The position numbers and the translations under genes are program-made. The notes beneath the pieces are model-generated. The model did no database searches. It saw only the letters and a program-made list of their open reading frames with translations, and was not told the origin of the DNA. Positions 633 through 17,528 of a stretch of DNA of 35,287 bases are shown here, in pieces. The stretch spans positions 1-35,287 of the forward strand of contig WRJM01000006.1 of the NCBI GenBank assembly GCA_009782265.1. The letters run 5' to 3'. The stretch is from Oscillospiraceae bacterium (GTDB lineage: Bacteria; Bacillota; Clostridia; Oscillospirales; Ruminococcaceae). Every line of letters starts with the position of its first letter. Within the stretch, counting starts at the first letter, position 1.

Positions 633-1916
633 TTATTTATTTTCTATATCAGCTCCGATTTTCCGCAGATTGCCGACAAGGTCGTCATAACCCCTGTCAA
701 TATGCGAAATACCGGTGATTGTGCTCGTTCCTTCCGCAAATAACGCCGCCGTAACCAACGCTGCGCCGCCTCTTAAATCAGTGGCTTCCAAATCCGCGCC
801 GGTCAGCCTTTCCACGCCCTCAACAACCGCAACGCGGTTATCCACGCTGATTTTCGCGCCGAGCCTTGAAAGCTCCTGTGCGTGGCGGAAGCGGTTGTCA
901 AAAATCGTTTCCACAAAAACCGTAGTGCCTTTCAAAGTTGACGCCAATGCCATAATCATAGGCTGTGCGTCAGTCGGAAACCCGGGGTGAACCGAAGTAA
1001 TGATTTTATGCGGTGCGCGCAGGTTTTTGCTTGCGTTTATATAAATCCGGTCTTTTCCGTAGGTGTAAATACTGCACCCCATTTGTTCAAACGCGGGTAT
1101 AACCGCGCTGATATGGTTAAAATCGGCGTTTTTAAGCAATAATTCACCCCTTGTAATCGCCGCACAGCATAAGTAAGTCGCCGCGACGATTCTGTCGGGG
1201 ATTACGCTGTGCTGTGCGCCGCCGAGTTTGGGGACGCCTTCTATTATAATAGTACCCGTTCCCGCTCCCGTAATCTTCGCCCCGCATTTGTTCAGGAAAG
1301 CCGCAAGGTCTACAATTTCCGGTTCACGGGCGGCGTTGTTGATTTCTGTATTACCTTTAGCGGTTACAGCCGCTAAAATAATATTCTCCGTTGCGCCGAC
1401 TGAGGGAATGGAAAGCGAAATATGCGCGCCGCGAATCCCTTTCGGCGCGTTACAGTCTAAGTAGCCGTGTTCTTCTTTTATGTCAACGCCCATCTTACGT
1501 AGCGCGAGAATATGCAAATCAATCGGACGCGGTCCAAGCTCGCACCCGCCGGGGAACGACAGCCGGCAATGCCCCGCCCTGCCGAGGATTGCGCCGAGAA
1601 AAACAATAGAGGAGCGCATTTCGCGCATAAGCTCTAAGGGGACGTCTGTATTAACAAGCTGTTCGGAATTAATTGAAATGCTGTTTTGCTCTCTTTTGCA
1701 TTTACAGCCGAGACAATTTAAAATTCTGCAAGCCGCGTCGGCGTCTGTTAAATGGGGGCAATTATGTAAAACAGATTCTCCCCGGCATAGCACCGTACCG
1801 GACAATAACGGGAGGATGCTGTTCTTGGCTCCCTGTACCTCAAGCTCTCCGCTGAGCCTTTTTCCGCCTCCTATCACCAGCCTTTGTGCTCCGGATAAAA
1901 CCGCCACTCCCAACAC
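633..1916 (-). CDS. murA: UDP-N-acetylglucosamine 1-carboxyvinyltransferase
   Basis: 427 aa; GGKRLSGELEVQGAKNSILPLL, catalytic-Cys loop FPGGCELGPRPIDLH, HPGFPTDAQPMIMAL; GTG start. Confidence 0.96.
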   Translation of the reverse strand: MLGVAVLSGAQRLVIGGGKRLSGELEVQGAKNSILPLLSGTVLCRGESVLHNCPHLTDADAACRILNCLGCKCKREQNSISINSEQLVNTDVPLELMREMRSSIVFLGAILGRAGHCRLSFPGGCELGPRPIDLHILALRKMGVDIKEEHGYLDCNAPKGIRGAHISLSIPSVGATENIILAAVTAKGNTEINNAAREPEIVDLAAFLNKCGAKITGAGTGTIIIEGVPKLGGAQHSVIPDRIVAATYLCCAAITRGELLLKNADFNHISAVIPAFEQMGCSIYTYGKDRIYINASKNLRAPHKIITSVHPGFPTDAQPMIMALASTLKGTTVFVETIFDNRFRHAQELSRLGAKISVDNRVAVVEGVERLTGADLEATDLRGGAALVTAALFAEGTSTITGISHIDRGYDDLVGNLRKIGADIENK

Positions 1917-1938
1917 AACCTTTCAAATAAAGCATTTG

Positions 1939-1960
1939 GTACTAAAATTAATTTTAGTAC
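1939..1960. promoter_or_regulatory. Perfect 22-bp palindrome upstream of murA (operator-like)
   Basis: GTACTAAAATTAATTTTAGTAC equals its own reverse complement; lies 23-44 nt 5' of the murA start. Confidence 0.45.
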
Positions 1961-1999
1961 ATTTCATAATATGCCTTTTAAAAGAATTGTGTTATTTTA

Positions 2000-2067
2000 T
2001 AGGGAACGCATTAATGCGTTCCGATTATAAACCCTTTTTTAGCGGAACGGATAAATCCGTTCCCTAC
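2000..2067. repeat. Short dispersed palindromic element, copy 1 (TAGGGAACGCATTAATGCGTTCCG...CGGAACGGATAAATCCGTTCCCTAC)
   Basis: Same double-hairpin arrangement as 24669-24725; contains the perfect palindrome GGAACGCATTAATGCGTTCC and hairpin GGAACGGAT-AA-ATCCGTTCC. Confidence 0.9.
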
Positions 2068-3170
2068 GTTTTGATTAAATCTAACATTTCCCCAAGGATT
2101 TTATCCGCCGCATAGTCCGACGACATTTTTTTTGCCTGTTTCTCCATTTCTCTTAATTTTTGCGGGTTTTTGCATAATTCCGACACTTCTTCGGTTAGTT
2201 TCTGCGGTGTTAAGTCCTTGTCCTTGATTAAAACCGCCGCGCCGTCTTTTTCCATTGCCAAAGCGTTGTAATACTGGTGATTTTCCGCCGCGCCCGACCA
2301 CGGAATCTGAATAGAAGCCCGCCCCGCCGCCTTGATTTCGGTCTGGCTCATAGAACCCGAACGTGAAATAACCAAATCCGCCGCCGAAAGGCAGGTGTAC
2401 ATATTGCTGATATATTCTTTTATAATCGTTCGTTCCGGGTTTGTTTCAACCCCTTCAAACGGATTCCCTCTTTTCCGTCCGTATGAATGAATGTGATTGA
2501 TACCGCCGACTTCGTTTTCCCACTCGAGCAATGTGATAACAGCGTTCGTAATCGGATTTGAACCGTTACTGCCGCCGGACGACAATATCGTCAGCCCATC
2601 CGGCAGTCCGAGCTTTTTGCGTGCAGATTCCCTGTCCTCAAACTTCAAATTACTGCGTAGGGGATTCCCTGTAATCACACACTTTTCCGGCTCTGAAATA
2701 TGCTTTTTCATTTCTTCGTCAGCCGCAAAAACTTTATCAACAGCTTTCGACAGCATTTTTACCGCCGCCCCGGGGATTGAATTGCTTTCATGGACGGCTG
2801 TTTTTATTTTCATTTTTGCCGCCGCTTTCACGACCGGTACGGATATATACGCACCCATACCGACGACTATATCGGGTTTGAAATTCTTTATGATTTCTTT
2901 TGACTTAGCGCCCGCGTTTATATATAAGTAAGCCGCTTTTGCGTTTCTGGCTATATTTTTCGGGGTTAATTTCCGTTGTAAACCCGCCATTTTAACTGCC
3001 GTGAATTGATAACCGGCTTCTTTTATTAATTTGGCTTCCATACCGTCCGGCGTACCTACAAATAAAACCGCGCTTTCCTTGCCGGGGTAGACTTCTTTAA
3101 TTTTATCGGCAATAGCAAGCCCGGGGTTCACATGCCCCGCAGAACCGCCCGCGGCTATAATCACTCTCAT
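2064..3170 (-). CDS. murG: Undecaprenyldiphospho-muramoylpentapeptide beta-N-acetylglucosaminyltransferase
   Basis: 368 aa; GGSAGHVNPGLAIA, SGGSNGSNPITNAV, SRSGSMSQTEI; dcw context. Confidence 0.96.
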   Translation of the reverse strand: MRVIIAAGGSAGHVNPGLAIADKIKEVYPGKESAVLFVGTPDGMEAKLIKEAGYQFTAVKMAGLQRKLTPKNIARNAKAAYLYINAGAKSKEIIKNFKPDIVVGMGAYISVPVVKAAAKMKIKTAVHESNSIPGAAVKMLSKAVDKVFAADEEMKKHISEPEKCVITGNPLRSNLKFEDRESARKKLGLPDGLTILSSGGSNGSNPITNAVITLLEWENEVGGINHIHSYGRKRGNPFEGVETNPERTIIKEYISNMYTCLSAADLVISRSGSMSQTEIKAAGRASIQIPWSGAAENHQYYNALAMEKDGAAVLIKDKDLTPQKLTEEVSELCKNPQKLREMEKQAKKMSSDYAADKILGEMLDLIKT

Positions 3171-3193
3171 GGAACTAAGGCTCCTTGTTTTAT

Positions 3194-4630
3194 TTAATCT
3201 ATCGCCGCTCTTCTCGAAATATTCAATATAACTCCGATTTCCGCAAGCTGCATAATCAATGCCGAACCCCCGTAACTGAAAAACGGCAGAGAAATACCTG
3301 TATTGGGGATACTGTTGGTGACGACGCCGATATTGAGCAGGGATTGGATTCCGAGGTGCGATGTAATCCCCACCGCGAGCAGCATACCGAATCTGTCTCT
3401 TGCTTTAAGCGCTATAAAAAATCCTCTTAATACAAATAATATAAACAGTAAAATCACTAAAATCGCGCCTACAAACCCTAATTCTTCACAGACAATGGAA
3501 AAAATAAAGTCATTATGCGATTCGGGCAGATAGGAATATTTTTGCCTTGAATTCCCGAGCCCCAGCCCGAAAAGCCCCCCTGAGCCGATTGTAATCAGCG
3601 ATTGATAGGTTTGAAAGGTTGAACCTCTGATGTCAGCTTCCGGATTTTGCCAGCCTGAAATTCTCGCGCCGAAATAATCATGCCCCATCGCTTTTAGTCC
3701 GAGCAGTCCCATGCTTAATAAAATCGCAAACACTAAGAGCATGATGATTATATGTTTAATGTTGCAATCACCTATAAACATCATAATTAAACCGATGGTA
3801 AAAATAATAATGGTTGCCGACAGGTGCGACTGCATAAGCGTTAATCCGCATCCTGCCATTAAAAATAATAAAAAAGGTCTGAACCCGTATTTTAGTTCTT
3901 TGAGCCTGCCGTATCTTGTATGTACAAAATAAGCAAAAATAACAATTACTACGAATTTTAATATTTCTGACGGCTGTATACTGATACCGCCGATATAAAA
4001 CCAACGGTCTTTCACAATAAAAGTTGTGTAAAGCATAAGCCCCGCCGCAATACCCGCGCCTAATTTAATGATGAACTTATTCAGCATGATGCGGTAATCC
4101 ATAATGGAAAACGCAAGCATAGCCGCAAGCCCGATTCCGATAAAGGTAAGCTGTTTAAAAACATAATAGTAGCTGTCGCTGAATTTTCTGAACGCATAAG
4201 CGTAACTTGCCGAAAACATCATTACAATGCCGAAGCATAATAAAACAATAACGATAATAAAAAAAGGAAAATCAATTTTAGGCAGTTTTTCATACCTTAT
4301 TTTATGCTTTATTTTTTTTGAAGCAACCGCTGCTCCTCCATGCGAGCCTGATAACGCCGTTCTTTTTGATACACATTTTGCGTTTCTCCTTGTTGAAAAC
4401 GCTTTTCCGGACATGTCCGTGCTGTTCCGGTTTTTTGCAGGAAAATTCTGATTATCAGAATTTTCCTGCGTGACCGAAACTTCTCTGTTTTGCAAAGCCG
4501 CGCCGATTTCCGCCATTTTTTCTAAATGTGCCTGTCTTGCAGGCGATACAGGCGGCATCGAACGCTGTTGTTTCCCCTTGTTTTGGGTAAACATTTCATT
4601 TTTACTGTTACTGTTTTGCATATATCTCAA
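3194..4630 (-). CDS. ftsW: SEDS-family peptidoglycan polymerase FtsW/SpoVE
   Basis: 478 aa, polytopic; IQPSEILKFVVIV, ESHNDFIFSIVCEELGFVGA, PFFSYGGSALIMQLAEIGVILNISRR; long polar N-terminal extension. Confidence 0.92.
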   Translation of the reverse strand: MRYMQNSNSKNEMFTQNKGKQQRSMPPVSPARQAHLEKMAEIGAALQNREVSVTQENSDNQNFPAKNRNSTDMSGKAFSTRRNAKCVSKRTALSGSHGGAAVASKKIKHKIRYEKLPKIDFPFFIIVIVLLCFGIVMMFSASYAYAFRKFSDSYYYVFKQLTFIGIGLAAMLAFSIMDYRIMLNKFIIKLGAGIAAGLMLYTTFIVKDRWFYIGGISIQPSEILKFVVIVIFAYFVHTRYGRLKELKYGFRPFLLFLMAGCGLTLMQSHLSATIIIFTIGLIMMFIGDCNIKHIIIMLLVFAILLSMGLLGLKAMGHDYFGARISGWQNPEADIRGSTFQTYQSLITIGSGGLFGLGLGNSRQKYSYLPESHNDFIFSIVCEELGFVGAILVILLFILFVLRGFFIALKARDRFGMLLAVGITSHLGIQSLLNIGVVTNSIPNTGISLPFFSYGGSALIMQLAEIGVILNISRRAAID

Positions 4631-4658
4631 TTCCTCTTTCGGAATTTTTATCGGCTGA

Positions 4659-5681
4659 TTAATGAATCAAGCTGTTTACTAAGTATATTGCGGCAATACC
4701 CGCAAGCGCGGCAAGTGCTGAAAAAACAAATACAATTTTAACTTCCTTCCACCCGCGAAGTTCAAAGCTGTGGTGAATGGGGGTCATTTTAAACAGCCTT
4801 TTCCCGCCCGTTGCTTTAAAATAGGTTACTTGAATTAAAACGGTCAGCGCTTCCCAAATGTAAACCGCCGCCGCTACAACCATGATGACCTCACAGCCCG
4901 CGCCTATTCCGAGCGCGCAGACAATTCCGCCTAAAAACATCGAACCGGTGTCCCCCATAAAGACCTTCGCGGGGTGGAAGTTCCATATCAAAAAGCCCAA
5001 ACACCCGCCCGCAACGGCAACCGATAAAACCGACAGTTCAAAAAAGCCCAGTATAGAGCAAACCGTCATAAACGCCGCGCAGTAAATTAATGTTACACTG
5101 CCGCAAAGCCCGTCAATGCCGTCGGTTAAGTTCACCGCGTTCACAAGGTACAGGATTGCCAAGCCCATAATCACATAATAAAAATACCATAAATCAAGCT
5201 GTCCCAAAAACGGAAAAGTAATCACGGTTGAGGTATCGCCCGATATAACCCGCGCTGTAAAATACGCCGAAATAATCATAATCTGAAAGATTACTTTTTG
5301 ATTTGCCGTAAGCCCTTCGTTACGCTTTTTCTTTACTTTTATAAAATCGTCAAGGAAACCCACGAACGCAAAGCAAACAGCCATAATCATACCGGATATG
5401 CTTTTAAAAAAGTTTACAGAACCCGCCGCTTCAAAGCTGATGAACCCCTTAGCCCATAAAATACCCAGCCCTGCTCCGAAGCCGATTACAGAACCCGCAA
5501 TGAACAGCACGCCGCCCATCGTCGGAATTCCCTGCTTTTTTTCTTTATGCCAGACAGGACCGATGTCTAAAATCGTCTGCCCGTATTTAAGGCGGCGAAG
5601 TGCCGGAATGATGAAAAATCCCAGCAGAACCGTCACAACTAACGATATAGCCGCCGCGGCAAGGGTTGCGGTTAAATCCAT
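4659..5681 (-). CDS. mraY: Phospho-N-acetylmuramoyl-pentapeptide-transferase
   Basis: 340 aa; GIPTMGGVLF, FVGFLDDFIKVKKKRNEGLTANQK, NAVNLTDGIDGL, FMGDTGSMFLGG, TPIHHSFELRGWKE. Confidence 0.97.
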   Translation of the reverse strand: MDLTATLAAAAISLVVTVLLGFFIIPALRRLKYGQTILDIGPVWHKEKKQGIPTMGGVLFIAGSVIGFGAGLGILWAKGFISFEAAGSVNFFKSISGMIMAVCFAFVGFLDDFIKVKKKRNEGLTANQKVIFQIMIISAYFTARVISGDTSTVITFPFLGQLDLWYFYYVIMGLAILYLVNAVNLTDGIDGLCGSVTLIYCAAFMTVCSILGFFELSVLSVAVAGGCLGFLIWNFHPAKVFMGDTGSMFLGGIVCALGIGAGCEVIMVVAAAVYIWEALTVLIQVTYFKATGGKRLFKMTPIHHSFELRGWKEVKIVFVFSALAALAGIAAIYLVNSLIH

Positions 5682-5717
5682 ATAACACTAAGCTCCGTTT
5701 CGGAATTATAGTTATTT

Positions 5718-7115
5718 TTACTTCTTTTCATTGATAAAATTTAAAACAATTTCTCTTTCATCAAAAGGCATGTATTCGTCGCCTATCACCTGATAGGTTT
5801 CATGCCCTTTCCCGCAAAGCGCGATTATATCGCCTTTTTCTACTCGTTCTAAAGCCGCTGTAATTGCCTGCTCGCGGCAGGTGTAAGTTTCATAAGGAAC
5901 GCTTTCAATCCCCTTGCACACCTGCGAAATAATTTTCTCCCGGTCTTCAAATCTCGGATTATCCGAAGTAACAATGATGAAGTCGGCATACCTTGCCGCC
6001 GCTTCCCCCATTAACGGGCGTTTCATCACATCTCTTTCGCCCGGCGCGCCGAAAACACAGATTAATCTGCCGTTTGCGGAGCTTTTTATGTTTTCAAGAA
6101 ATTTTACAAGCGCGTCCGGGGTATGCGCGTAGTCGCGGATTACCGTAAAGTTTTCGTTATAGATTACTTCGCTTCTGCCTTTAACGCCTTTAAAATCCGC
6201 AAGTGTTTTGATTGCATCTTCAAGATTAATGCCCATTTGTACACAAACGCTGATGGCGGCTATGGAATTCGCCGCGTTATAACTGCCGGGGAGCGATAAT
6301 TTTACCTGATAGGATTTTTTTTCTTTCTCAGAAGAAAACCAGTAGGAAACGCCCGTGTTATTCAGTTTCAAATTCACCGCATAATGAGATGCGAAATCCT
6401 TCACGGAATAAGTTATAAGCGGTATTTCTTTGGTTGCTTTTATATATTGAACAAGTCTTTCGCCGTATTTATCGTCAATGCACACCACTGCGCTTTTAGA
6501 TATATCAAATAATGAACGCTTCGCTAAAAAATAATCTTCCATGGTCTTATGCCAGTCAAGGTGGTCTTGCGTTAAATTCGTAAAAACCGAGCAAGCAAAA
6601 CTTTCTTCCGCGAATCTGTCCTGTGACAACGCCTGTGATGACGCTTCCACCACGCAATATTCTGCTCCGTTGTCCGCCATTTCTCTGAAAAGCCTGTATA
6701 ACTCGTTTTGGCGCGGCAGGGTTAGATGCGCTTCATAGAATTTCCCGACCGTGTCATACCCGATTGTTCCGATTGAACCGGTTTTTTTTCCTTGCTTTTC
6801 TAAAATATGTTTAATCAGCGCGATTGTGGTGCTTTTCCCGTTTGTGCCCGTGGCGGCGAGCAGTTTTATATTTTTAGTAGGATTCCCGTAAAAATCTGAT
6901 GATAATTTAGCAAAATGTTTACGGCTGTTTTCAACAATGATTTGTTTGGGCAGGTTCAAATCTCTTTCGGTAACAATTGCAGAAGCACCCTTTTCGAGCA
7001 TTTCGCCCGCAATGCTGTGCCCGTCGAAATTTTCGCCTTTTATGCAGACAAAAATATTATTTTCTTTAAATTCCAAAGAATTATCCGTAATCCCGCTAAC
7101 CCCGTCAAAATTCAT
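5718..7115 (-). CDS. murE: UDP-N-acetylmuramoyl-L-alanyl-D-glutamate--2,6-diaminopimelate ligase
   Basis: 465 aa; ATGTNGKSTT P-loop, E-A-S-S-Q motif, DNPR motif (VTSDNPRFED) typical of meso-DAP-adding MurE, GKGHETYQ. Confidence 0.95.
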   Translation of the reverse strand: MNFDGVSGITDNSLEFKENNIFVCIKGENFDGHSIAGEMLEKGASAIVTERDLNLPKQIIVENSRKHFAKLSSDFYGNPTKNIKLLAATGTNGKSTTIALIKHILEKQGKKTGSIGTIGYDTVGKFYEAHLTLPRQNELYRLFREMADNGAEYCVVEASSQALSQDRFAEESFACSVFTNLTQDHLDWHKTMEDYFLAKRSLFDISKSAVVCIDDKYGERLVQYIKATKEIPLITYSVKDFASHYAVNLKLNNTGVSYWFSSEKEKKSYQVKLSLPGSYNAANSIAAISVCVQMGINLEDAIKTLADFKGVKGRSEVIYNENFTVIRDYAHTPDALVKFLENIKSSANGRLICVFGAPGERDVMKRPLMGEAAARYADFIIVTSDNPRFEDREKIISQVCKGIESVPYETYTCREQAITAALERVEKGDIIALCGKGHETYQVIGDEYMPFDEREIVLNFINEKK

Positions 7116-7126
7116 AATCCAAATCC

Positions 7127-9565
7127 CTATCCTGCGTATCCGTCCACGAATATAAATTTCACTTCTATGACCGTGCCGGACGCCACCTTTGTTCCCTCCG
7201 GCAGACTTTGCGAATACGCCGTAGCCCTGTCGCTGTAAATCGTACCCGTTAGTTTTACGTTCAGCCCCGCGTTGGTCATAACCTCGTTTACTTTTGCCGG
7301 GCTAAGCCCGTAAACATTAGGGACAGTGCTCATATTATATTCTTCTTCAGCCATATAAACCACCACTGTGCCGTTCGGGGCAATCGGCTGACCTCCCTGC
7401 GGAACGGTATAAAGTACGCGGTTTCCGCTTCCGAGTCCTTGGAAGTTCGCAGTTAAGCCTGCTTCCGCAAGCTTATTTAACGCTTCCGTTTCGGTCATAT
7501 CTTTCAAATAAGGCACTACGGTGTCTTGCATAGCAAGCTCTTCTTCGCTCATTTGCGACGGATAAATTTCAAGATACGGCAGGGTTTCTTTGAACACGGC
7601 GGAAACCACAGGCGCGGCAACCGCACTTCCGTAGTAAGAACCGCCGGTCGGCTGGTCTACTATAACGAGCATGACAATTTCGGGGTCATTGGCGGGCGTG
7701 AACGCGCAGAACGAGCCTACGTACAGTTCATGCCCCTCCCCGTAATCGGGATGGTCGATTTTCTGGCTGGTTCCGCTCTTCCCGCCGATTCTGTAACCTG
7801 CGATATAAGCGTTATTTTCGCGGTTGACTTCAACTACATCTTCCAATATTTGACGCATAAGCGCGGAGGTTTCTTCGCTGATTACCTGTCTTTTAACATT
7901 CGGCTGTGTGCTTTGAATGACGTTGCCGTCGTTATCTATAATTTTATCCACGACATAAGGCGTTACCAAATAACCGCCGTTAATCGCCGCGGCATACGCT
8001 GTAATCATCTGTAAAGGCGTAATTTTATTTGCTTGACCGAAAGAGGAAACCGCAAGGTCAACTATGCCCATATTTTCTCTTTTATGGAAGTAAGGCGCGG
8101 ATTCGCCGGGTAAGTCTATTCCTGTTTTTTTCGTGAATCCGAAAGCGTCGAAATAATCCGAGAACCGCTCCACACCCAATAATTTTCCGATTGAAACAAA
8201 TGATGGGTTACAGCTTTTAGTAATCGCTTCTGTTAAATTGGCAATTTGACCGTGTCCGCCCGTGCTCCAGCAATTGATTTTCTCGCCGCCCTCAATGACA
8301 TGACCGGGGCAGTAAAACCCTGTATTAAGCCCTACGACGTGTTCTTCAAGCGCGCTTGCGCAGGTAATTACCTTAAAAACAGAGCCGGGGAAATAAAGCT
8401 CGCTGATTGCCTTGTTTTTCCACTGCGTTTCCCGCATAACACTGCGCATGATGTCAATATCACTGTTGATTTTTTCAACCTGCTCTGATGTTAAATCCGC
8501 TTCCGTACCGATTTCAAAGCCGCTCAGAATCAGCGTATCGTTGATTTTTTCCTGCCTGATGTCTTCAAGTTTTTGATAATCAAGGTCGGAAAGCGTTGAG
8601 GGTTCGTTCAAATCAAAGCTCGGATAGGTTGCCATTGCTAAAACCGCTCCGGTGTTGGCGTTCATAATAATCCCGGTTGCCCTGTTTTCAGGCTTATGCT
8701 GTGATACGGCGATTTCAAGGTTTTTTTCCAAATAATGCTGTAAAACCTCATCAATCGTAAGAATCAAGCTGTTGCCGTTCTGCGCTTCGTAACGCATTTC
8801 ATAATCGTAAGGCATAGCTTGGTTATATGCGTCTTTTGCCATGACAAACAGCCCGTCAACGCCTTTCAAATAATCATCATACTGCGCTTCGATGCCGTAA
8901 ATACCGATATTATCGTAATTCGTGAACCCGATGACGTTCGCCGCAAGATAGCCGTTTGGGTACAGTCTTTTAGTGTCTTCAATTTTATAAACGGAATACG
9001 TTCCGATTCCTTTTTCCTTTTTAAATTCGTCAAGCTTGTCAATTTCCGCTTTTTCCACTTTTTTTACAACGATTTCATAACCAAGCTCCGAATCCTGACA
9101 GGTTTTTAAAAGCTTTTCATAATCAAGCTCAAAAATATCCGCAAGTGCGCGGCAGATTTCTTCTGCTTCATCGTAAACAATCCCCGAAACAGGCAAATAA
9201 GCGGGAAGCCCGTCATTAATATTTTTATGATATTCGTTCATCGCCGCGATTTCACGCTGTGTTTGGTACACTTCTTTATTTTTCCAAATCGCGCTCGGCG
9301 ATAAAATAACCGTCCAAACCGTTTTGCTCTGCGCTAATATTTTCCCGTTGCGGTCATAAATTGTCCCTCTGTTCGCGTTAATCGTAAAAGGACGCAATTG
9401 CTGGTTATTTGCTTTTGCGCGGTAATACTCCGCTTTGATGACAGCGGTGTCAAAAAGCTGTGTACTTATATACACTGTTAATGCTAAAATCAATGCGAAA
9501 GCCGCTTTGAGCTTAAACTGCATTGACTTAGCCGGTGACGGATTATTTTCAGACCTTTCTGTCAT
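7127..9565 (-). CDS. Class B penicillin-binding protein (SpoVD/PBP2-like) with C-terminal PASTA domains
   Basis: 812 aa; N-terminal TM, NRGTIYDRNGKILA, SELYFPGSVFKVIT (SxxK), KSGTSQKID (KSGT), two PASTA-like repeats (TVVPYLKDMTETEALNKLAEAGL; TVPNVYGLSPAKVNEVMTNAGLNV). Confidence 0.94.
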   Translation of the reverse strand: MTERSENNPSPAKSMQFKLKAAFALILALTVYISTQLFDTAVIKAEYYRAKANNQQLRPFTINANRGTIYDRNGKILAQSKTVWTVILSPSAIWKNKEVYQTQREIAAMNEYHKNINDGLPAYLPVSGIVYDEAEEICRALADIFELDYEKLLKTCQDSELGYEIVVKKVEKAEIDKLDEFKKEKGIGTYSVYKIEDTKRLYPNGYLAANVIGFTNYDNIGIYGIEAQYDDYLKGVDGLFVMAKDAYNQAMPYDYEMRYEAQNGNSLILTIDEVLQHYLEKNLEIAVSQHKPENRATGIIMNANTGAVLAMATYPSFDLNEPSTLSDLDYQKLEDIRQEKINDTLILSGFEIGTEADLTSEQVEKINSDIDIMRSVMRETQWKNKAISELYFPGSVFKVITCASALEEHVVGLNTGFYCPGHVIEGGEKINCWSTGGHGQIANLTEAITKSCNPSFVSIGKLLGVERFSDYFDAFGFTKKTGIDLPGESAPYFHKRENMGIVDLAVSSFGQANKITPLQMITAYAAAINGGYLVTPYVVDKIIDNDGNVIQSTQPNVKRQVISEETSALMRQILEDVVEVNRENNAYIAGYRIGGKSGTSQKIDHPDYGEGHELYVGSFCAFTPANDPEIVMLVIVDQPTGGSYYGSAVAAPVVSAVFKETLPYLEIYPSQMSEEELAMQDTVVPYLKDMTETEALNKLAEAGLTANFQGLGSGNRVLYTVPQGGQPIAPNGTVVVYMAEEEYNMSTVPNVYGLSPAKVNEVMTNAGLNVKLTGTIYSDRATAYSQSLPEGTKVASGTVIEVKFIFVDGYAG

Positions 9566-9640
9566 TGAACTCTCCTAAATAATAAAACAATTTATAAAAC
9601 TTAACGAACTGTCAACAGCCTGTCTGTTAATTAATATATT

Positions 9641-10117
9641 CTACCTGAAGCCTAAAAATTCCAGCGTATTTGCAAACCATTTTGATACAAAGACAACAGG
9701 GCTGTCGTTGATTTCAGCTATATCGGTTGTTCCGCCGGTGTCAAGAGAAACGTATTTGCCCTGATTGGTTGCCACTTTCTGCATCCCGAGTTCCTTGGCG
9801 TATTCTTCAACCTTCGCTACGGTAACAAGGTTGTCAAGCTCCGCCTGAAGCCTTGAATTCTCGCTTTCTGCCTTTTCCAAAGCCATGCTTTCTTCGCTGA
9901 TTTTCACTGAAAGCTCGGATAATTCAACCTTGCTGACAAGCAGATAAACCGGAAGCGTAATCGCGCAAATCGCCAAAAGCAGAGTTTTAATCACACTGCC
10001 GCTTCGTGCGGCGGCAGGTTTATTAAGAGGTTTGGGATTCATTTTAATTTTCTTATCCTCCCGTTCTTCAAATAAGGAAAAGTCATGGGCTTCACTGGTT
10101 CTGTTTGGCAGCATCAT
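9641..10117 (-). CDS. ftsL: FtsL-like septum formation protein
   Basis: 158 aa; one TM followed by coiled coil (ELSVKISEESMALEKAESENSRLQAELDNLVTVAKVEEYAKELGMQK); between rsmH and the PBP gene. Confidence 0.75.
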   Translation of the reverse strand: MMLPNRTSEAHDFSLFEEREDKKIKMNPKPLNKPAAARSGSVIKTLLLAICAITLPVYLLVSKVELSELSVKISEESMALEKAESENSRLQAELDNLVTVAKVEEYAKELGMQKVATNQGKYVSLDTGGTTDIAEINDSPVVFVSKWFANTLEFLGFR

Positions 10118-10139
10118 AAGTTTTTTACCCCTCGTTTAT

Positions 10140-11132
10140 TTATATTTTTTCAATTACCCTCAGTTTTGCGCTTCTGCTGCGAATATTATTTTCAAGCTCA
10201 GCTTGTCCGGCTGTGACCGGCTTTTTATACACAAGCCGTCCTTTCGGTTTATTTCCGCAAACGCAGACCGGAAATTCCGGCGGACAGATACATCCTGTTG
10301 AAAGCTGTTTGAAACTGTTTTTAACGATTCTGTCTTCAAGCGAATGAAATGAAATCACCGCAAGCCTTCCGCCGGATTTTAAAAGTTCAAACGCTTCCGG
10401 TAAAGCTTTTTCAATATTTTCAAGCTCGCTGTTGACCTCTATCCTGATTGCCTGAAAGGTTTTCCTGCACGGGTTCTTCTCTTTGCGGATTTTTAAAGGA
10501 ACATTATTTTTAATAATTTCCGCAAGCTGATTTGTGGTTTTTACGGGGGATTCTTCGCGGGCTTTTATGATTCCGCTTGTAATCCCTCTTGCGAACTTTT
10601 CTTCGCCGTAATGAAATAATATCCTTGTCAAATCCTCCGCGGAATAGGTATTCACCACATCATAAGCGCTTAAATTACCTTCTGCGGGGTTCATCCGCAT
10701 ATCAAGCGGCGCGTCCTCATGGAAAGAAAATCCGCGCTCCGCGCTGTCAAGCTGATGGGAAGAAACCCCTAAATCCATCAGAATCCCGTCTGCGTCCGTA
10801 AACCCTTGTTCCGAAGCGTGTTTTTTTATATTCGTGAAATTATCATTAATTAAAATCACAGGGAAATTTGCTAATTTTATTTTCGCGGCTTCTATTGCTT
10901 GCCGGTCTTGGTCGAGGCAGAGGAGGGCGCCTGATGTTCGTTTTGGGTTTGGGTTTGCCCTTAATGTTCTTTTGGAGAAGTCAAGTTTACCCGCAATTTC
11001 AAGGCTGTGCCCTCCGCCCCCTACCGTGCAGTCTATATAAACGCCTTGCGGCATTACCTGTAAGGCTTCAATGCTTTCTTTCAAAAGCACCGGTGTATGC
11101 GAAAATTCCGGAAATTTTAATATATCAGACAT
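10140..11132 (-). CDS. rsmH: 16S rRNA (cytosine(1402)-N(4))-methyltransferase RsmH
   Basis: HTPVLLKESIEAL, YIDCTVGGGGHSLEIAGKL, GILMDLGVSSHQLDSAERGFSFHEDAPLDMRM, SFHSLEDRIVK; start taken at MSDILKF; carries an unusual 16-aa insert. Confidence 0.96.
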   Translation of the reverse strand: MSDILKFPEFSHTPVLLKESIEALQVMPQGVYIDCTVGGGGHSLEIAGKLDFSKRTLRANPNPKRTSGALLCLDQDRQAIEAAKIKLANFPVILINDNFTNIKKHASEQGFTDADGILMDLGVSSHQLDSAERGFSFHEDAPLDMRMNPAEGNLSAYDVVNTYSAEDLTRILFHYGEEKFARGITSGIIKAREESPVKTTNQLAEIIKNNVPLKIRKEKNPCRKTFQAIRIEVNSELENIEKALPEAFELLKSGGRLAVISFHSLEDRIVKNSFKQLSTGCICPPEFPVCVCGNKPKGRLVYKKPVTAGQAELENNIRSRSAKLRVIEKI

Positions 11133-11133
11133 A

Positions 11134-11568
11134 TCAGAAACCAATTTCTTCCGCTATATCCACCAGCATGTCCATGCTTTCGTCGTCGGTGGCTTTCTCC
11201 CAGTTCGCTTTGCTCCAAATTTCAGCGCGCGCGCCAAGCCCCACAACAACCACTTCCGATTCAATTTCAGCGTATTTCCGTAAATACAGCGGCAGTATAA
11301 TCCTGCCCTGCTTGTCCGGTTCTGCAGGTTCAGCAGTTCCGAAAATCCCTCTTAATAAAGGTGCGGTTTTATTTTGCGGCAGTTCATTCAGCTTTTCCGA
11401 TAAAGCGTTCCAGTCAGCGGTTGAATACACTTTAAGACACTTTACATTATTATCAATGGCTTTAGCGACGATGAAAGCTTCTCCCAGTTCATCGCGGAAT
11501 TTTGCCGGAAAATTCATTCTGCCTTTTACGTCAACTGTCGATTTAGATTGTCCGAGAATTGCTTTCAC
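11134..11568 (-). CDS. mraZ: Transcriptional regulator MraZ
   Basis: 144 aa; STVDVKGRMNFPAKFRDEL and DKQGRIILPLYLRKYAEIESEVVVVGLGARAEIW: two AbrB/SpoVT-like MraZ repeats; first gene of the dcw cluster. Confidence 0.95.
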   Translation of the reverse strand: MKAILGQSKSTVDVKGRMNFPAKFRDELGEAFIVAKAIDNNVKCLKVYSTADWNALSEKLNELPQNKTAPLLRGIFGTAEPAEPDKQGRIILPLYLRKYAEIESEVVVVGLGARAEIWSKANWEKATDDESMDMLVDIAEEIGF

Positions 11569-11607
11569 CCCCTGTTCAGAAGTTATAGTCGAGGTTATCT
11601 GTTAAAT

Positions 11608-11654
11608 TTCAACCACTTTTAACCCAATTCGTGAATTTTTAACCATTTTTCACC
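11608..11654 (-). promoter_or_regulatory. Candidate MraZ-binding repeats (TGGTTAAAA / TGGGTTAAAA / TGGTTGAAA) in the mraZ 5' region
   Basis: Three similar TGG(G)TTRAAA direct repeats on the minus strand between the promoter and the mraZ start. Confidence 0.45.
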
Positions 11655-11666
11655 GCCGATAAACTT

Positions 11667-11695
11667 ATTATACACTTTCTGAACTAAAAAAGCAA
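11667..11695 (-). promoter_or_regulatory. Sigma-A-type promoter of mraZ/dcw cluster
   Basis: Minus strand TTGCTT-17 nt-TATAAT about 100 nt upstream of mraZ. Confidence 0.75.
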
Positions 11696-11752
11696 TTCAT
11701 TTTTTAAAACTTTATCAGAAAACTTTTTGCCACTTTTTTAGTAATATTGCAC

Positions 11753-11781
11753 AAAAAGAACCCTCAAAATTAGAGGGTTCT
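11753..11781 (-). terminator. Rho-independent terminator after the GHKL gene
   Basis: Minus strand AGAACCCTC-TAATTTT-GAGGGTTCT followed by TTTTTG; lies between the GHKL stop and the mraZ promoter. Confidence 0.75.
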
Positions 11782-11838
11782 AACAAAAATTTTTACAATA
11801 TATTGTGTTGCTATTTGTTACCTTTATACTACATGTCG

Positions 11839-14800
11839 TTATTTTTTATTGTTTCTGCCGCTTTTATTGTCCTTATTTTTTTCTACCCAGTCCGCCGCCG
11901 CCAAAGGCGACAGAATCATTTTAACCGTTTTCTTGGTTGCTGACAGTTTTCCGGAAAAACTTTCTTCGCTGTCGGGCATATCGTGGGTGATTTGCTCACG
12001 GTAAGTCAGCGTGCACTGTAAAAGCTCAGACGTAATCCTTTCCGCTTTCTGGATTTTGTCAAGCCATTCAAACGGCGGCATACCGCTTATGGAAAGGTCG
12101 TCGAAAACCCAACTGTCGCATAACGCTGTATCATCAGCGCAGAGGTAAAGCGAAAAGTTAAAATGCCGTTCATGCTCACCGTACATGATTTCCACTTCAA
12201 AATCCCGTACCGTAAAGCCGTTAATCCCTTCCGACTCAAACCCGCAGAAAGAACAGCTCCCGCCGTATCCGAATAATTTAGCGTTTACGTCCTTTGCAAA
12301 ATAATTCCGCGCATTAAGCTCATTTTCGGTTATATCACGCGCAACCGAGCGCAAAAATCCGAATTCTTCCTTACTGAAAGACGGTAACGGTTTCAAATAA
12401 AACGCAAGCTGATCGGGAATGACAATCTTCGCGCCTGCTGCACCCATATAACGCCGGCGCATAAGGTTTTTATTTTCACCGGTAATGATTATTTCGATGA
12501 TGTCCGCGAATTCTTCTTTCAAATAATCTTCACGCAGAATAATGTACTTTTGGGTTAAAGCGCGTTTTTCCGCGTCTATACCGTTTTGAATGTCAACAAT
12601 GTCAACAATAACATCATTTTCACCTAACAGAGCAACTTTATTTGATTTTAACTCCGCAACTTGAATTTTACCGAACAAATCAACAATATCCGCTTCCGCA
12701 AGCTCGTCGGACGCAAGAATTTTAACAACTTTCTGCGGCTCAAAGTTATAACGCCCCTTGTCGTAAATAAACCCGAATGTTCTGCCGTTCAGCACGCCGC
12801 TTTTGATTAAAGCGTTAATATCGCCGATGATTTCAATCAGTTCCGCGTTGGTTATTTCGGGGGAAATCATAAACATGGTTTCATAAACCGAGAAGCAGTA
12901 GTTGTTGTCAATATCGGGCTGAACGGTGATTTCCGCGCCCTGTTCTTTAAGTGCGCGCAAAAATTCCGCAACCGGTCTGCCCTCCGCGAAAGCGTCAAGC
13001 ATTAATTTCACCGTTTCGCTGTAATCCTGATACGTCAGGAACAAACGCTTATGCTTTTGCAATATTTTAATCAGCTTCTGTATGTCTTTTACTTTAACAT
13101 TGCTTGTTTCAATCGGGAATTCGTCGGTGGAAAGCAGAACATAAAGCTTGCCGTCTTTTAAAGCAATCCGGTATTCGCCGTGGTACATATCGTCAAGCGA
13201 CGCCAGCAGTTTCTCGAATTGTTCGCCGCTTTGCAGTGAATCGCCGCCGTTTAACGCTTCGCTCAAGACGCGCTCCGCTAAGCTCATAAAGCCGTCGAAC
13301 AGGTCGTAGTCAGTGAAAGCGGGGTTATTCTCAGAGCTGATGTACATAACATTTCCGTCTTTATGAAATTCATAAAGATAAGTTACGCCGCCTTCGTTAC
13401 CTTCCTGCAGTTCTTCGCCTTCCGCTAACACGGGCGGTTCCCACTCATAACCGGCGTAAAGGATTCTGTGGGACAGGCTTCCGAGCATGCGGTTCATGCT
13501 TTCAAGCTTCGCATTGATGAATTCCTGATAAGCCGCGCCGTTCCAGTGGCTTTCGTTAGGAACTTGCTTGATACTGCTGAAATACGCAAGCTTCTGCATA
13601 TCCGAATAATGCAAGGGTTCTTCCCCTTTGTTATACCTGAGCGAAACAGCACCCAAAAAGCTTTTCCTAAGCTCTTCCGGAAAGTTTCCGGTCAGAATAA
13701 AGTTTTTAATAAACTCAAATGCGTAGGATTCGGGAAGCAAATGATAAAACCCGTCGCCGTCCGCGTTGGGGTGCAGTCCCAGTACAAAAAACCGCTCATA
13801 ATCGGAAATAATTTTCTTCACGCTTTCCTCAACATGCGAAATCACCTCAAACTCTCTATCCGGACGTATACCGGTACGGAACGAGGTAATATGTCGGTTG
13901 GGAACACTGATGAAAAACGCCGAAAGCTTCCGCTCGTTAAAGCCGGTGTCTTCGCTTTTAATTAAGCCTGTAAGCTCATAAGTTGAAAAGAAGTTGTATT
14001 TCTCCGTCAGAAGCTTCACCATATCGGCGCGCTTAGACATTGCCAGCGCAAACGGAATCAAGTAAACAAAGCCGTCGTTTTCGTAGCAGATGAAGTCAAC
14101 CACGCTTTTACCGCCTTGGGTAAAGCGCACTACATTGACGTCAACGGCTTTATTGTAATGATTATAAACCTTATAAAATTCAATCAGCTTACCGTTATTC
14201 ATCACGGCTATATTAAAGGTACGCTTGTCATTCATTTCGGTTGATTTTTTATTGTTAAGGATTTTCTTGCGGTTAAACGCGAAGCAGAGTTCAACAAGGC
14301 TGATATAATCGCCTTTGTCAGACGTAAGATTAATAAAGTTTTCTTTGATTCTTTTATGCTGTTCGGGGTCAACCTTAATGACGATTTCCGTACCCTTGAA
14401 AATCGGGCGGCGCAGGTTGATGTCGGTGATTTTCAATAAACCGTCGTTGTTCATAATGCAGAAGCTGAAATTATTGGAACGCATAGAAAGCCATTCAACA
14501 TTCATAAAGACGCTCTTCGCGCCTACGCCGAAACGTCCCTCACTGCTCGCGGCGTTTTTGGTATTCCGCCCGAAGCTGAGGTAAAACATGAACTGCTCTA
14601 ATATAAAGCCTACCTCGTTGTATGAAATGGAAATGGTGTGATTATCCTTGAAGTTGACCGCGATTTTTACGTCATCCTCGTCATAATCGCAGTCGAAGGC
14701 GTTCTGGAAAAGCTCCCTGATGATGCTTTCCACCGGATAATCCTTGAGGTTGAGGAGCGTGTTGAAAGCGGTACGCCCGCTGAACATCTCATTGAAATAC

Positions 14801-14949
14801 GCCATGAACTCAGCGTGCTCGTCCTCTCCCGTCATCAGCAGAGCGTCAAGCGTTTCAAGCGTGGTTGACATCTTGTAGAAGTCTTTATTGGCGTGCCCTT
14901 CATAAAAGTCGCCGATAAGCGCCGTTACTTTCCCGGTATTTCCCGCCAC
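11839..14949 (-). CDS. Large HSP90/sacsin-like GHKL ATPase-domain protein
   Basis: 1036 aa, GTG start with AAGGAG RBS; N-box ELFQNAFDCDYDED, atypical G1 box ISYNEVGF, G2 box GRFGVGAKSVF; C-terminal CSFCG...C-x5-C cluster. Confidence 0.8.
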   Translation of the reverse strand: MAGNTGKVTALIGDFYEGHANKDFYKMSTTLETLDALLMTGEDEHAEFMAYFNEMFSGRTAFNTLLNLKDYPVESIIRELFQNAFDCDYDEDDVKIAVNFKDNHTISISYNEVGFILEQFMFYLSFGRNTKNAASSEGRFGVGAKSVFMNVEWLSMRSNNFSFCIMNNDGLLKITDINLRRPIFKGTEIVIKVDPEQHKRIKENFINLTSDKGDYISLVELCFAFNRKKILNNKKSTEMNDKRTFNIAVMNNGKLIEFYKVYNHYNKAVDVNVVRFTQGGKSVVDFICYENDGFVYLIPFALAMSKRADMVKLLTEKYNFFSTYELTGLIKSEDTGFNERKLSAFFISVPNRHITSFRTGIRPDREFEVISHVEESVKKIISDYERFFVLGLHPNADGDGFYHLLPESYAFEFIKNFILTGNFPEELRKSFLGAVSLRYNKGEEPLHYSDMQKLAYFSSIKQVPNESHWNGAAYQEFINAKLESMNRMLGSLSHRILYAGYEWEPPVLAEGEELQEGNEGGVTYLYEFHKDGNVMYISSENNPAFTDYDLFDGFMSLAERVLSEALNGGDSLQSGEQFEKLLASLDDMYHGEYRIALKDGKLYVLLSTDEFPIETSNVKVKDIQKLIKILQKHKRLFLTYQDYSETVKLMLDAFAEGRPVAEFLRALKEQGAEITVQPDIDNNYCFSVYETMFMISPEITNAELIEIIGDINALIKSGVLNGRTFGFIYDKGRYNFEPQKVVKILASDELAEADIVDLFGKIQVAELKSNKVALLGENDVIVDIVDIQNGIDAEKRALTQKYIILREDYLKEEFADIIEIIITGENKNLMRRRYMGAAGAKIVIPDQLAFYLKPLPSFSKEEFGFLRSVARDITENELNARNYFAKDVNAKLFGYGGSCSFCGFESEGINGFTVRDFEVEIMYGEHERHFNFSLYLCADDTALCDSWVFDDLSISGMPPFEWLDKIQKAERITSELLQCTLTYREQITHDMPDSEESFSGKLSATKKTVKMILSPLAAADWVEKNKDNKSGRNNKK

Positions 14950-14966
14950 TCAAATCACTCCTTTAC

Positions 14967-16628
14967 TTATACTTTATTATAAAGCTCAATAAACTTTTGA
15001 TACGTTCTGGGAATTTTAAGTTCATATTTGCAATGCTTCCAAATCCCGATTAACGCGGCGAGCTTCATATTATCGGACAGCGCGCTTGTTTCTTCCGCGA
15101 TAATCTTGAAGTCGGTTTCCTTGCCGGTCAGTTTCCGTGCGGCTTTTAACGCTTCTCTTATTTCGGGAATATTGGCTTTGATGTCTTTTTCCGGTTTTTC
15201 GGGCAGGTCATCCGCTGTATGCAAAACCATGTTTTCGTCAAGGAAAACCCTTTTATTCCTAAATACCGCGATTTTTTCGGTGATTTCCCCGAAAACCCGC
15301 TCCCCGTCTATTTCATTCTCTTTTAAAATATAAGCTAAATCCAACATGGGCAGCAGTTTCTGCAATTTTTCTTTCCCTGCTTCGCCCGCGACAAATTTTA
15401 AGTCTAAAATCAGAACCGTTAAATGCTCTTCAATATCCGGAATGTCAAACAACAGGGATTTATCGGGAATGTGCCCGCAGAACATCCGTATTGATTCGCT
15501 CAGGATGGATTCACGCAGGATTTTACCGTCTGTTTTATATTCTTCATCACAGAAAAGATAAAACACGGGATTCTCTTTTGCGGCTTTTCTGCCGCCTCTT
15601 GCGTATCTTTGTTCCAAAACCGCGGGGTTTTCAGGGTATTCATAGTTAATGATATGCGTGATTTTTTCTGTATTAATGAACATTGTACCGCAAAGGTCGT
15701 TGGTGATGATGATTTGCGGCTCTGTAATACTTTCGCCTTTAAATTCGCCGCTTATAAATTCGGCTTCGTTCACGCCGCTGTCGTAAACGCATATACTCTT
15801 GCTGTCTTTATAAAACTCGGATAAAGCGTTTTTAACCAAGGTTACGGTATTTTGCGCCGTGCAGTAAATCACCGTGCGGTTCTCCGGGTTTGACAGAATG
15901 GTTTCTGTTTCTTTCAGGAACGCGCCGGTTTTATTTTCCCCTTTGTAGCTGATGGTTTTTACCGTGTAATTCCCCTCCATGTTTCTGCCCGCGATAATGG
16001 AATCTTTCAGCTCGTCAGCGGAGAAATCGGCTTCTCTTCTTTTTTTCTCGTTGCGTTTCAATAAATGCTTCACAAGCGTTGATAAATTTTCGCAGGTTTC
16101 ACCGAAATCATCGGGCGCGGGTGCGTTAATCAGCAGTTTATCCGCTTTTATACCGATTGCGTTTATATAAGCATCTGTGTTAATCTTGCAGGAAAAAGGA
16201 AGGTCAATAACCATTAAATCCCAAACGAACTTTTGATTTTCCTTTACCGTTTTTGCGGTTATAGAATTTCCTTTGCTTTTAATCAGCGACTCCGAAGTCA
16301 TCATGCAGAGGTTAGAAATTGACGGTGAAATCAATTCCGGCGTTTTATCGTTCACGCTTAAATACTTGAATTCAACGCCCATATCCCACAGGAACGCAGA
16401 ATACCAGCTTTTCACCAAATGTTCAGGCGCAATCACAATGATGTTGGGTTTTTCCGTTTTAGTTAAAACGTCATTAACGCAAAGCTCCGCCGCCTGAATC
16501 TTTTTGGTTTCCAGCCGGTTTATCATCAGCGCGTAACCGTGTCTGGAAAGCCTTTCAGGCAACGACAGCACTTCAGCGTCTATTTCCGCATTGTTGAGCC
16601 AAAGCCATTCTATGTTACTCATAAGCAC
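14967..16628 (-). CDS. SNF2/SF2-like helicase with degenerate Walker A/B (putative pseudo-helicase)
   Basis: 553 aa; IIVIAPEHLVKSWYSAFLWD (motif Ia-like), WDLMVIDLP at the DEAH position, INAPAP at the TATP position, IIITNDLCGTMFINTEKITHIINYEYPENPAVLEQRYARGGR (motifs V/VI). Confidence 0.7.
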   Translation of the reverse strand: MLMSNIEWLWLNNAEIDAEVLSLPERLSRHGYALMINRLETKKIQAAELCVNDVLTKTEKPNIIVIAPEHLVKSWYSAFLWDMGVEFKYLSVNDKTPELISPSISNLCMMTSESLIKSKGNSITAKTVKENQKFVWDLMVIDLPFSCKINTDAYINAIGIKADKLLINAPAPDDFGETCENLSTLVKHLLKRNEKKRREADFSADELKDSIIAGRNMEGNYTVKTISYKGENKTGAFLKETETILSNPENRTVIYCTAQNTVTLVKNALSEFYKDSKSICVYDSGVNEAEFISGEFKGESITEPQIIITNDLCGTMFINTEKITHIINYEYPENPAVLEQRYARGGRKAAKENPVFYLFCDEEYKTDGKILRESILSESIRMFCGHIPDKSLLFDIPDIEEHLTVLILDLKFVAGEAGKEKLQKLLPMLDLAYILKENEIDGERVFGEITEKIAVFRNKRVFLDENMVLHTADDLPEKPEKDIKANIPEIREALKAARKLTGKETDFKIIAEETSALSDNMKLAALIGIWKHCKYELKIPRTYQKFIELYNKV

Positions 16629-16646
16629 GCTCCTTTATAATCATTA

Positions 16647-17528
16647 TTATAAATAATAAACGCCTTTTATCCGGGTAGTTGCCTTGCCGCCGAAAAGAAT
16701 CCGGCTGTTTCTGTAAGAAAGATTGACCGTGTTGAAAATTCTGTCTGCGCCGCCTTGTTCAATGGTTACGGGACTGCCGTCCCATAATTGATTCTTCATC
16801 ATGTAATAACCAAACGCGCTGTTCCCAGAACCGGTCGCGGGGTCTTCCAAATAACCGAACTTCGGAGCGAAAACCCTTGTATGCGCGATATTATCTTTAT
16901 TTTCCGTTTTAAGTGAATAAATTAAAATAATGTCAATGCCGTTATTCAAACAAAACTTTTTAAGGATTTGTTCATTAGGGAAAATATTAATTTCATCTTG
17001 AAAAGCCGCAATCGGTATAATTAACGTTTTTAATCCTGCGTCGATTATATCTGTTGGCTGAGCATTTGAAATTTGACTTACACTGAGGGACATGTTCTCC
17101 GCTATTTCGTTCAAGGTAAGCTTTGTTCCGATATAAACCGGATTCGGTGCGGTGATGTAAACCGCGTCCCATGTTTCAATCTCATTATATACAGTCAGCG
17201 CGCCTTTTTGATTGGTATAAATGATTATTTCTTTTTGATTCTGTAATTCCGGGGTTTCTTGAATCAAATGATACATGCACGCAATCGTCCCGTGCCCGCA
17301 GAAATCCACTTCGCACTCGGATGAATAATACACAAGCTTAAAAGCATTTTCCGTTTCCGGCGTAATGTATATAACCTCTGAAACAAAGCCTTTATGCTGT
17401 TTTGCGATATAAAGCATTTCCGTTTCTGTCAGGAATTGCTCTTGTTTTAAATAAATGCAGGCGGCGGGATTCCCTAAGGAATTTTTGGATGTAAAAGCGT
17501 CGATTTTCCTGTATTCAAGCGTTCTCAT
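16647..17528 (-). CDS. PhzF family phenazine biosynthesis-like isomerase
   Basis: 293 aa; YRKIDAFTSKNSLGNPAACIYL, ECEVDFCGHGTIACMYHL, FGYLEDPATGSGNSAFGYYM. Confidence 0.93.
   Translation of the reverse strand: MRTLEYRKIDAFTSKNSLGNPAACIYLKQEQFLTETEMLYIAKQHKGFVSEVIYITPETENAFKLVYYSSECEVDFCGHGTIACMYHLIQETPELQNQKEIIIYTNQKGALTVYNEIETWDAVYITAPNPVYIGTKLTLNEIAENMSLSVSQISNAQPTDIIDAGLKTLIIPIAAFQDEINIFPNEQILKKFCLNNGIDIILIYSLKTENKDNIAHTRVFAPKFGYLEDPATGSGNSAFGYYMMKNQLWDGSPVTIEQGGADRIFNTVNLSYRNSRILFGGKATTRIKGVYYL

Follow-up and report, generated by a model that had tools for sequence, protein, structure and literature searches.

The window, by which we mean the whole 35,287-nucleotide stretch of DNA that was analysed, contains two adjacent minus-strand genes, the first for a helicase-like partner protein and the second, 17 nt downstream of it, for a GHKL ATPase. 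The features of the unit, from the lowest coordinate upward, are as follows.

11752–11781, minus strand: intrinsic terminator with a 9-bp stem (11781–11757), a loop of 7 and a TTTTT run, which ends the unit before mraZ
11839–14949, minus strand: GHKL-S5 ATPase of the sacsin/HSP90 type, 1036 aa, GTG start (ORF call)
14958–14964, minus strand: Shine-Dalgarno sequence AAAGGAG of the ATPase gene, inside the 17-nt intergenic gap
14967–16628, minus strand: partner gene, a predicted SNF2-fold pseudo-helicase (553-aa frame from GTG)
16630–16636, minus strand: Shine-Dalgarno sequence AAAGGAG of the partner gene, 5′ of the ATG at 16622

The partner likely starts at the ATG at 16622, which gives a protein of 551 aa, because AAAGGAG precedes this codon and many homologues start with MSN or MND at the same place. 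A PhzF-like gene and gpmI lie 5′ of the pair; the PhzF-like gene (16647–17528), located between gpmI and the pair, is absent from that place in the relatives examined. We found no nuclease, HEPN or methylase domain within the pair or in the adjoining genes, and no methylase gene adjoined the pair in the loci read. The architecture proposed by a sequence-only reading of this DNA, namely two minus-strand genes with a 17-nt gap, a ribosome binding site and a terminator, forming a unit without a visible nuclease or methyltransferase, is borne out by the open reading frames, the AAAGGAG in the gap, the terminator's stem and TTTTT run, and the genes beside the pair. Its description of the 1036-aa ATPase as ‘giant’ was an overstatement.

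Motifs and folds of the two proteins

The ATPase has the Bergerat-fold boxes of GHKL ATPases (the N-box glutamate and asparagine, G1, the G2 glycines and GT). The boxes of the window protein are RELFQNAFDC (residues 78–87), YNEVGF (110–115), EGRFGVGAKSVF (137–148), KGTEI (185–189) and RTGIR (358–362), and an alignment of 60 ATPase relatives shows RELxQN, YNExGF, EGRFGxGxKSVF, GTE and RTGI to be near-invariant. The G1 box has an asparagine (YNExGF) where an aspartate is usual; YNEVGF is likewise found in a sacsin-type relative from the same genus (locus L081, described below). Pfam's HATPase_c_3 and SACS both match the window ATPase below their cut-offs. The NCBIfam sacsin ATP-binding domain (NF047352) matches 21 of the 21 aligned members, all with E < 0.001, and the window protein scores 35.1 bits against it (E = 1.3e-8), under the curated cut-off of 50. 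The ATPase is thus a relative of the sacsin-type NF047352 family that falls short of its curated membership cut-off. No Pfam or NCBIfam family spans the full length of either protein, and the ATPase profile, run against PDB sequences, returned nothing meaningful. In the AlphaFold model of the ATPase (pLDDT 76, pTM 0.52), the N-terminal and middle domains match HSP90 (HSP90B), TRAP1, MutL and GyrB (Foldseek, E 1e-10 to 1e-6), and the top matches are HSP90, TRAP1 and GRP94.

The partner scores above the Pfam cut-off for Helicase_C, and a profile built from 20 of its relatives has RapA as its top PDB match, spanning both RecA domains (E = 6e-7). Its predicted structure (pLDDT 81, pTM 0.85) best matches RapA and other SNF2 ATPases, including eukaryotic chromatin remodellers, with E-values between 1e-12 and 1e-9. 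Structure prediction therefore yields both of the folds that the sequence-only reading had named, GHKL and SF2/SNF2, and confirms that the GHKL boxes are real and that the upstream gene is helicase-like. Unlike RapA, an active ATPase of ~970 residues that recycles RNA polymerase, the partner is shorter by 300–400 residues and without the catalytic residues. It matches HmaA-type and DrmD-type SNF2 proteins about equally, and the assignment of a single nearest SNF2 subfamily was dropped, since these relatives score alike.

The partner combines a two-RecA SNF2 fold with the loss of the catalytic set (GxGK[TS], DEAH and QRxGRxxR). In the window protein, ETKKI replaces GxGKT in motif I and DLPF replaces DEAH in motif II. 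Across 55 distinct partner proteins, GxGK[TS] occurs in 13 and the catalytic glutamate (DE) in five, the latter confined to two neighbouring genera, and not one protein has both. The earlier term ‘degenerate helicase’ was right as to a degenerate SNF2-like protein and understated the extent of the loss, because the motor has gone across the whole family. Other residues are kept: the Walker A lysine in 48/55, the motif II (Walker B) aspartate in 55/55, and the first and second motif VI arginines in 55/55 and 50/55. Judged by these residues, the partner is a family-wide SNF2-fold pseudoenzyme that is predicted to be catalytically dead. Nucleotide binding without hydrolysis may fit the same pattern, and the partner may bind nucleotide as a switch, because the Walker A lysine, the Walker B aspartate and the motif VI arginines persist.

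Partner length varies from 437 to 700 aa across the family. The window copy is without a conserved inter-domain linker of ~71 aa (the GLPLYxxGGNxFEEY region) and has lost a further ~25 aa. All other relatives keep this linker except two short partners of 437–438 aa from two other species (L085, 5948–7264; L086, 5739–7052).

These folds could also be accommodated by a role in protein quality control, with the ATPase as a sacsin/HSP90-like chaperone and the SNF2-fold partner as a client or co-chaperone platform that contacts no nucleic acid. The prominence of HSP90, TRAP1 and GRP94 among the ATPase's fold matches and the loss of the DNA motor from the partner both speak for such a role. However, the ATPase also matches GyrB and MutL, the partner's RecA cores are still recognisably SNF2, and published bacterial GHKL–SNF2 pairings are DNA-related (PMC2292703), and we regard a quality-control role as improbable.

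Distribution, selection and genomic neighbourhood

The two genes are adjacent and on the same strand in all 55 distinct loci where both are in view, with a median gap of 1 nt; homologues do not occur alone, as the pairing proposed from sequence had required. Within the window's genus the ATPase is present in 69 of 71 genomes (41/41 of those of good quality); it is also present in 41 of the 43 genomes of a second genus (27/27 of good quality) and in the single genome of a third. The partner profile matches proteins in 67/71 genomes of the window's genus, a few of which are other SNF2 proteins. Beyond these genera the ATPase is rare: 11 of 299 genomes of the family have a match, including a weak HSP90-type match in genome G183, and a survey of 391 genomes of the class found it in two only, both belonging to the window's genus. 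The wide spread across the Oscillospiraceae that had been envisaged is not supported by these counts. G183 (L011/L031) was considered as a divergent member and rejected, as its locus encodes a protein of the HSP90 type and, after it, an unrelated one.

In a few species the ATPase is truncated or the partner undetectable, and the pair is therefore not indispensable everywhere. Through large in-frame losses, the ATPase of G1040 (L089) is without the G2 box region and that of G1044 (L088) consists of the C-terminal half only; G1070 (L090) and G1071 (L087) are further exceptions, G1071 having an ATPase with no detectable partner alongside. Each of these may be a true reduction or an artefact of metagenome assembly.

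Mobile or accessory systems are expected to be patchy and to lie in islands, and the near-universal presence of the ATPase in two genera follows neither pattern. Searches of plasmids and of viral contigs for the pair gave no match, and on this evidence and the distribution we rejected an origin of the window copy in a mobile or defence island. One record with the GenBank label ‘Bacteriophage sp.’ (MT835670.1; L139) was also considered. It is a human-faecal contig that is 98.5% identical over 13 kb to the chromosome of G133, a member of the same genus; we therefore treat it as a mislabelled bacterial contig and reject a phage origin, and its source places the genus in the human gut as well.

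Both genes are maintained jointly under strong purifying selection. Among close relatives, dN/dS (Nei-Gojobori) is 0.02–0.11 for the ATPase and 0.05–0.16 for the partner, which is the faster-evolving of the two proteins, and the pairwise identities of the two are closely correlated (r = 0.97). These values bear on whether the partner is an eroding remnant that is nearing loss, so that the ATPase alone matters. The shortened window copy, the two 437–438-aa versions and the solitary ATPase of G1071 would be consistent with erosion, but the partner's frames stay open across dozens of species at the dN/dS values given, and we consider such a remnant very improbable. The prediction of a fixed cellular component stands on the same selection, on the distribution above and on the scarcity of defence-type helicase kin described below.

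Many species have the pair between gpmI and mraZ; in others, including several lineages of the window's genus, it is located elsewhere. In the second genus (L023, L025 and L028) it lies 81–106 bases upstream of a run of genes in the same orientation, which in L028 encodes RnfC, NQR2/RnfD-type and FMN-binding proteins. Neither gene has a constant neighbour except its fellow member of the pair. The location of the pair beside the dcw cluster is incidental, and the functional link to a dcw or housekeeping operon that had been drawn from it is not supported by the comparison. We likewise rejected the gpmI–dcw linkage as an ancestral arrangement, since no other genus sampled from the family showed gpmI and rsmH linked.

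Defence-type relatives and a proposed role

Two genomes of the window's genus contain, beyond the core pair, an intact pair in which a HEPN_Swt1–SNF2 helicase gene is followed by a gene for a sacsin/TmtA-type ATPase.

L081 (G1050:C55), 5786–14150: intact helicase/ATPase pair
L082 (G1063:C96), 1775–8782: intact helicase/ATPase pair

These pairs share with the core pair the same two protein classes, the gene order, a near-zero gap (1 and 3 nt) and the genus. Their helicases, in contrast to the core partner with its dead motor and no HEPN domain, have about 1190 aa, a HEPN domain and the live motifs GVGKT, DEAH and QRIGRIDR. One of the two ATPases has two GHKL domains, and one of the two loci adjoins a type III methylase and a restriction gene. 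By profile, the core proteins match their counterparts, the ATPase in its GHKL core and the partner in its helicase C-domain. A shared C-terminal zinc motif in the ATPases was proposed from cysteine spacings that are alike by eye and was discarded, as hhalign gave no significant alignment between the C-terminal Cys motifs. Relatives of the live helicase occur in 4 of the 71 genomes of the genus, whereas the core ATPase occurs in nearly all of them. We found no name for this type of pair, which is possibly an unnamed defence system.

Named defence systems match the core pair in part. The sacsin-type N-terminal GHKL domain of TmtA (PADLOC), which we take to be Tiamat, matches residues 69–163 of the window ATPase (E = 1.7e-7). 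This match covers the ATPase domain only, ~100 positions of a 1655-position profile (TmtA profiles are 1063–1782 positions long), and does not extend to the full length; Tiamat is, moreover, a single-gene system. HmaA and DrmD give partial domain matches to the partner, and no companion methylase gene, as in the Hma and DISARM systems, adjoins the pair in the loci read, which places the pair outside both. Prokaryotic MORC and paraMORC operons, which are laterally mobile loci of restriction type, contain a GHKL-S5 ATPase gene adjoining a SWI2/SNF2 (SF2) helicase gene and mostly encode nucleases and methylases too (PMC2292703). The core pair shares their GHKL-S5 and SNF2 components, but it is without the nuclease and methylase and is vertically fixed.

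The main rival to the reading we develop below is that the pair is still anti-phage and has become fixed in these genera as an immune component; the GHKL protein would then be the effector or switch, and the pseudo-helicase the sensor of phage DNA or protein. Among named proteins, the closest relatives of the two all belong to defence systems (TmtA, HmaA and DrmD), and the same-genus pairs of the same design sit in defence-type surroundings. On the other hand, no good-quality genome of the two genera is without the ATPase, whose dN/dS is very low, while the defence-type helicase is patchy, and the pair neither contains nor adjoins nuclease, HEPN or methylase domains. Weighing these, we consider a fixed immune role unlikely, though it is the strongest of the alternatives.

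We judge it somewhat probable that the pair is a lineage-specific core putative complex with kinship to a defence-type SNF2-helicase/GHKL-ATPase pair, and that it probably arose from one by domestication. Descent from a HEPN–SNF2/sacsin pair specifically is plausible and is not proven, because the partner also matches HmaA- and DrmD-type SNF2 proteins. From the retained residues and folds we infer a cellular role in which an SNF2-fold adaptor without motor activity would work alongside a GHKL switch. The GHKL switch is kept, the motor and the nuclease context are absent, and the pair is core; the reading that needs the fewest assumptions is that it was domesticated as a cellular remodeller. 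A more specific version, which we offer tentatively, is that a domesticated immune-type pair has become a core machine of two gut genera, with an active HSP90/MutL-like ATPase and a nucleotide-binding, non-hydrolysing SNF2 pseudo-helicase forming a DNA- or polymerase-targeted remodeller that has neither motor nor nuclease. Like HSP90 and MutL, the GHKL protein would bind ATP and close as a dimer by way of its N-terminal domains, and it would hydrolyse ATP with Glu79 of the N-box and perhaps Arg358. The partner would be unable to translocate, would possibly bind nucleotide as a switch, and would use its SNF2 cleft to bring the ATPase to the target, either a duplex nucleic acid or a nucleoprotein. 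Acting on DNA or on RNA polymerase complexes, such an assembly would serve as a clamp or remodeller and not as a nuclease or restriction system.

No paper on this ATPase/pseudo-helicase pair came to light in our literature searches. GHKL–SNF2 pairings have been described in mobile restriction and defence loci; the present one is core in more than 100 species of two genera. A helicase that is predicted to be dead family-wide, beside a near-invariant ATPase, provides a bacterial test case for an SNF2 pseudo-helicase as an adaptor, and the pair offers a bacterial test of whether immune-type ATPases can be domesticated to core cell functions. Separately from these pairs, two further loci (L083, G1054:C37; L084, G1061:C87) encode Hma-type systems whose HmaC ATPase has an N-terminal HEPN_Swt1 domain.
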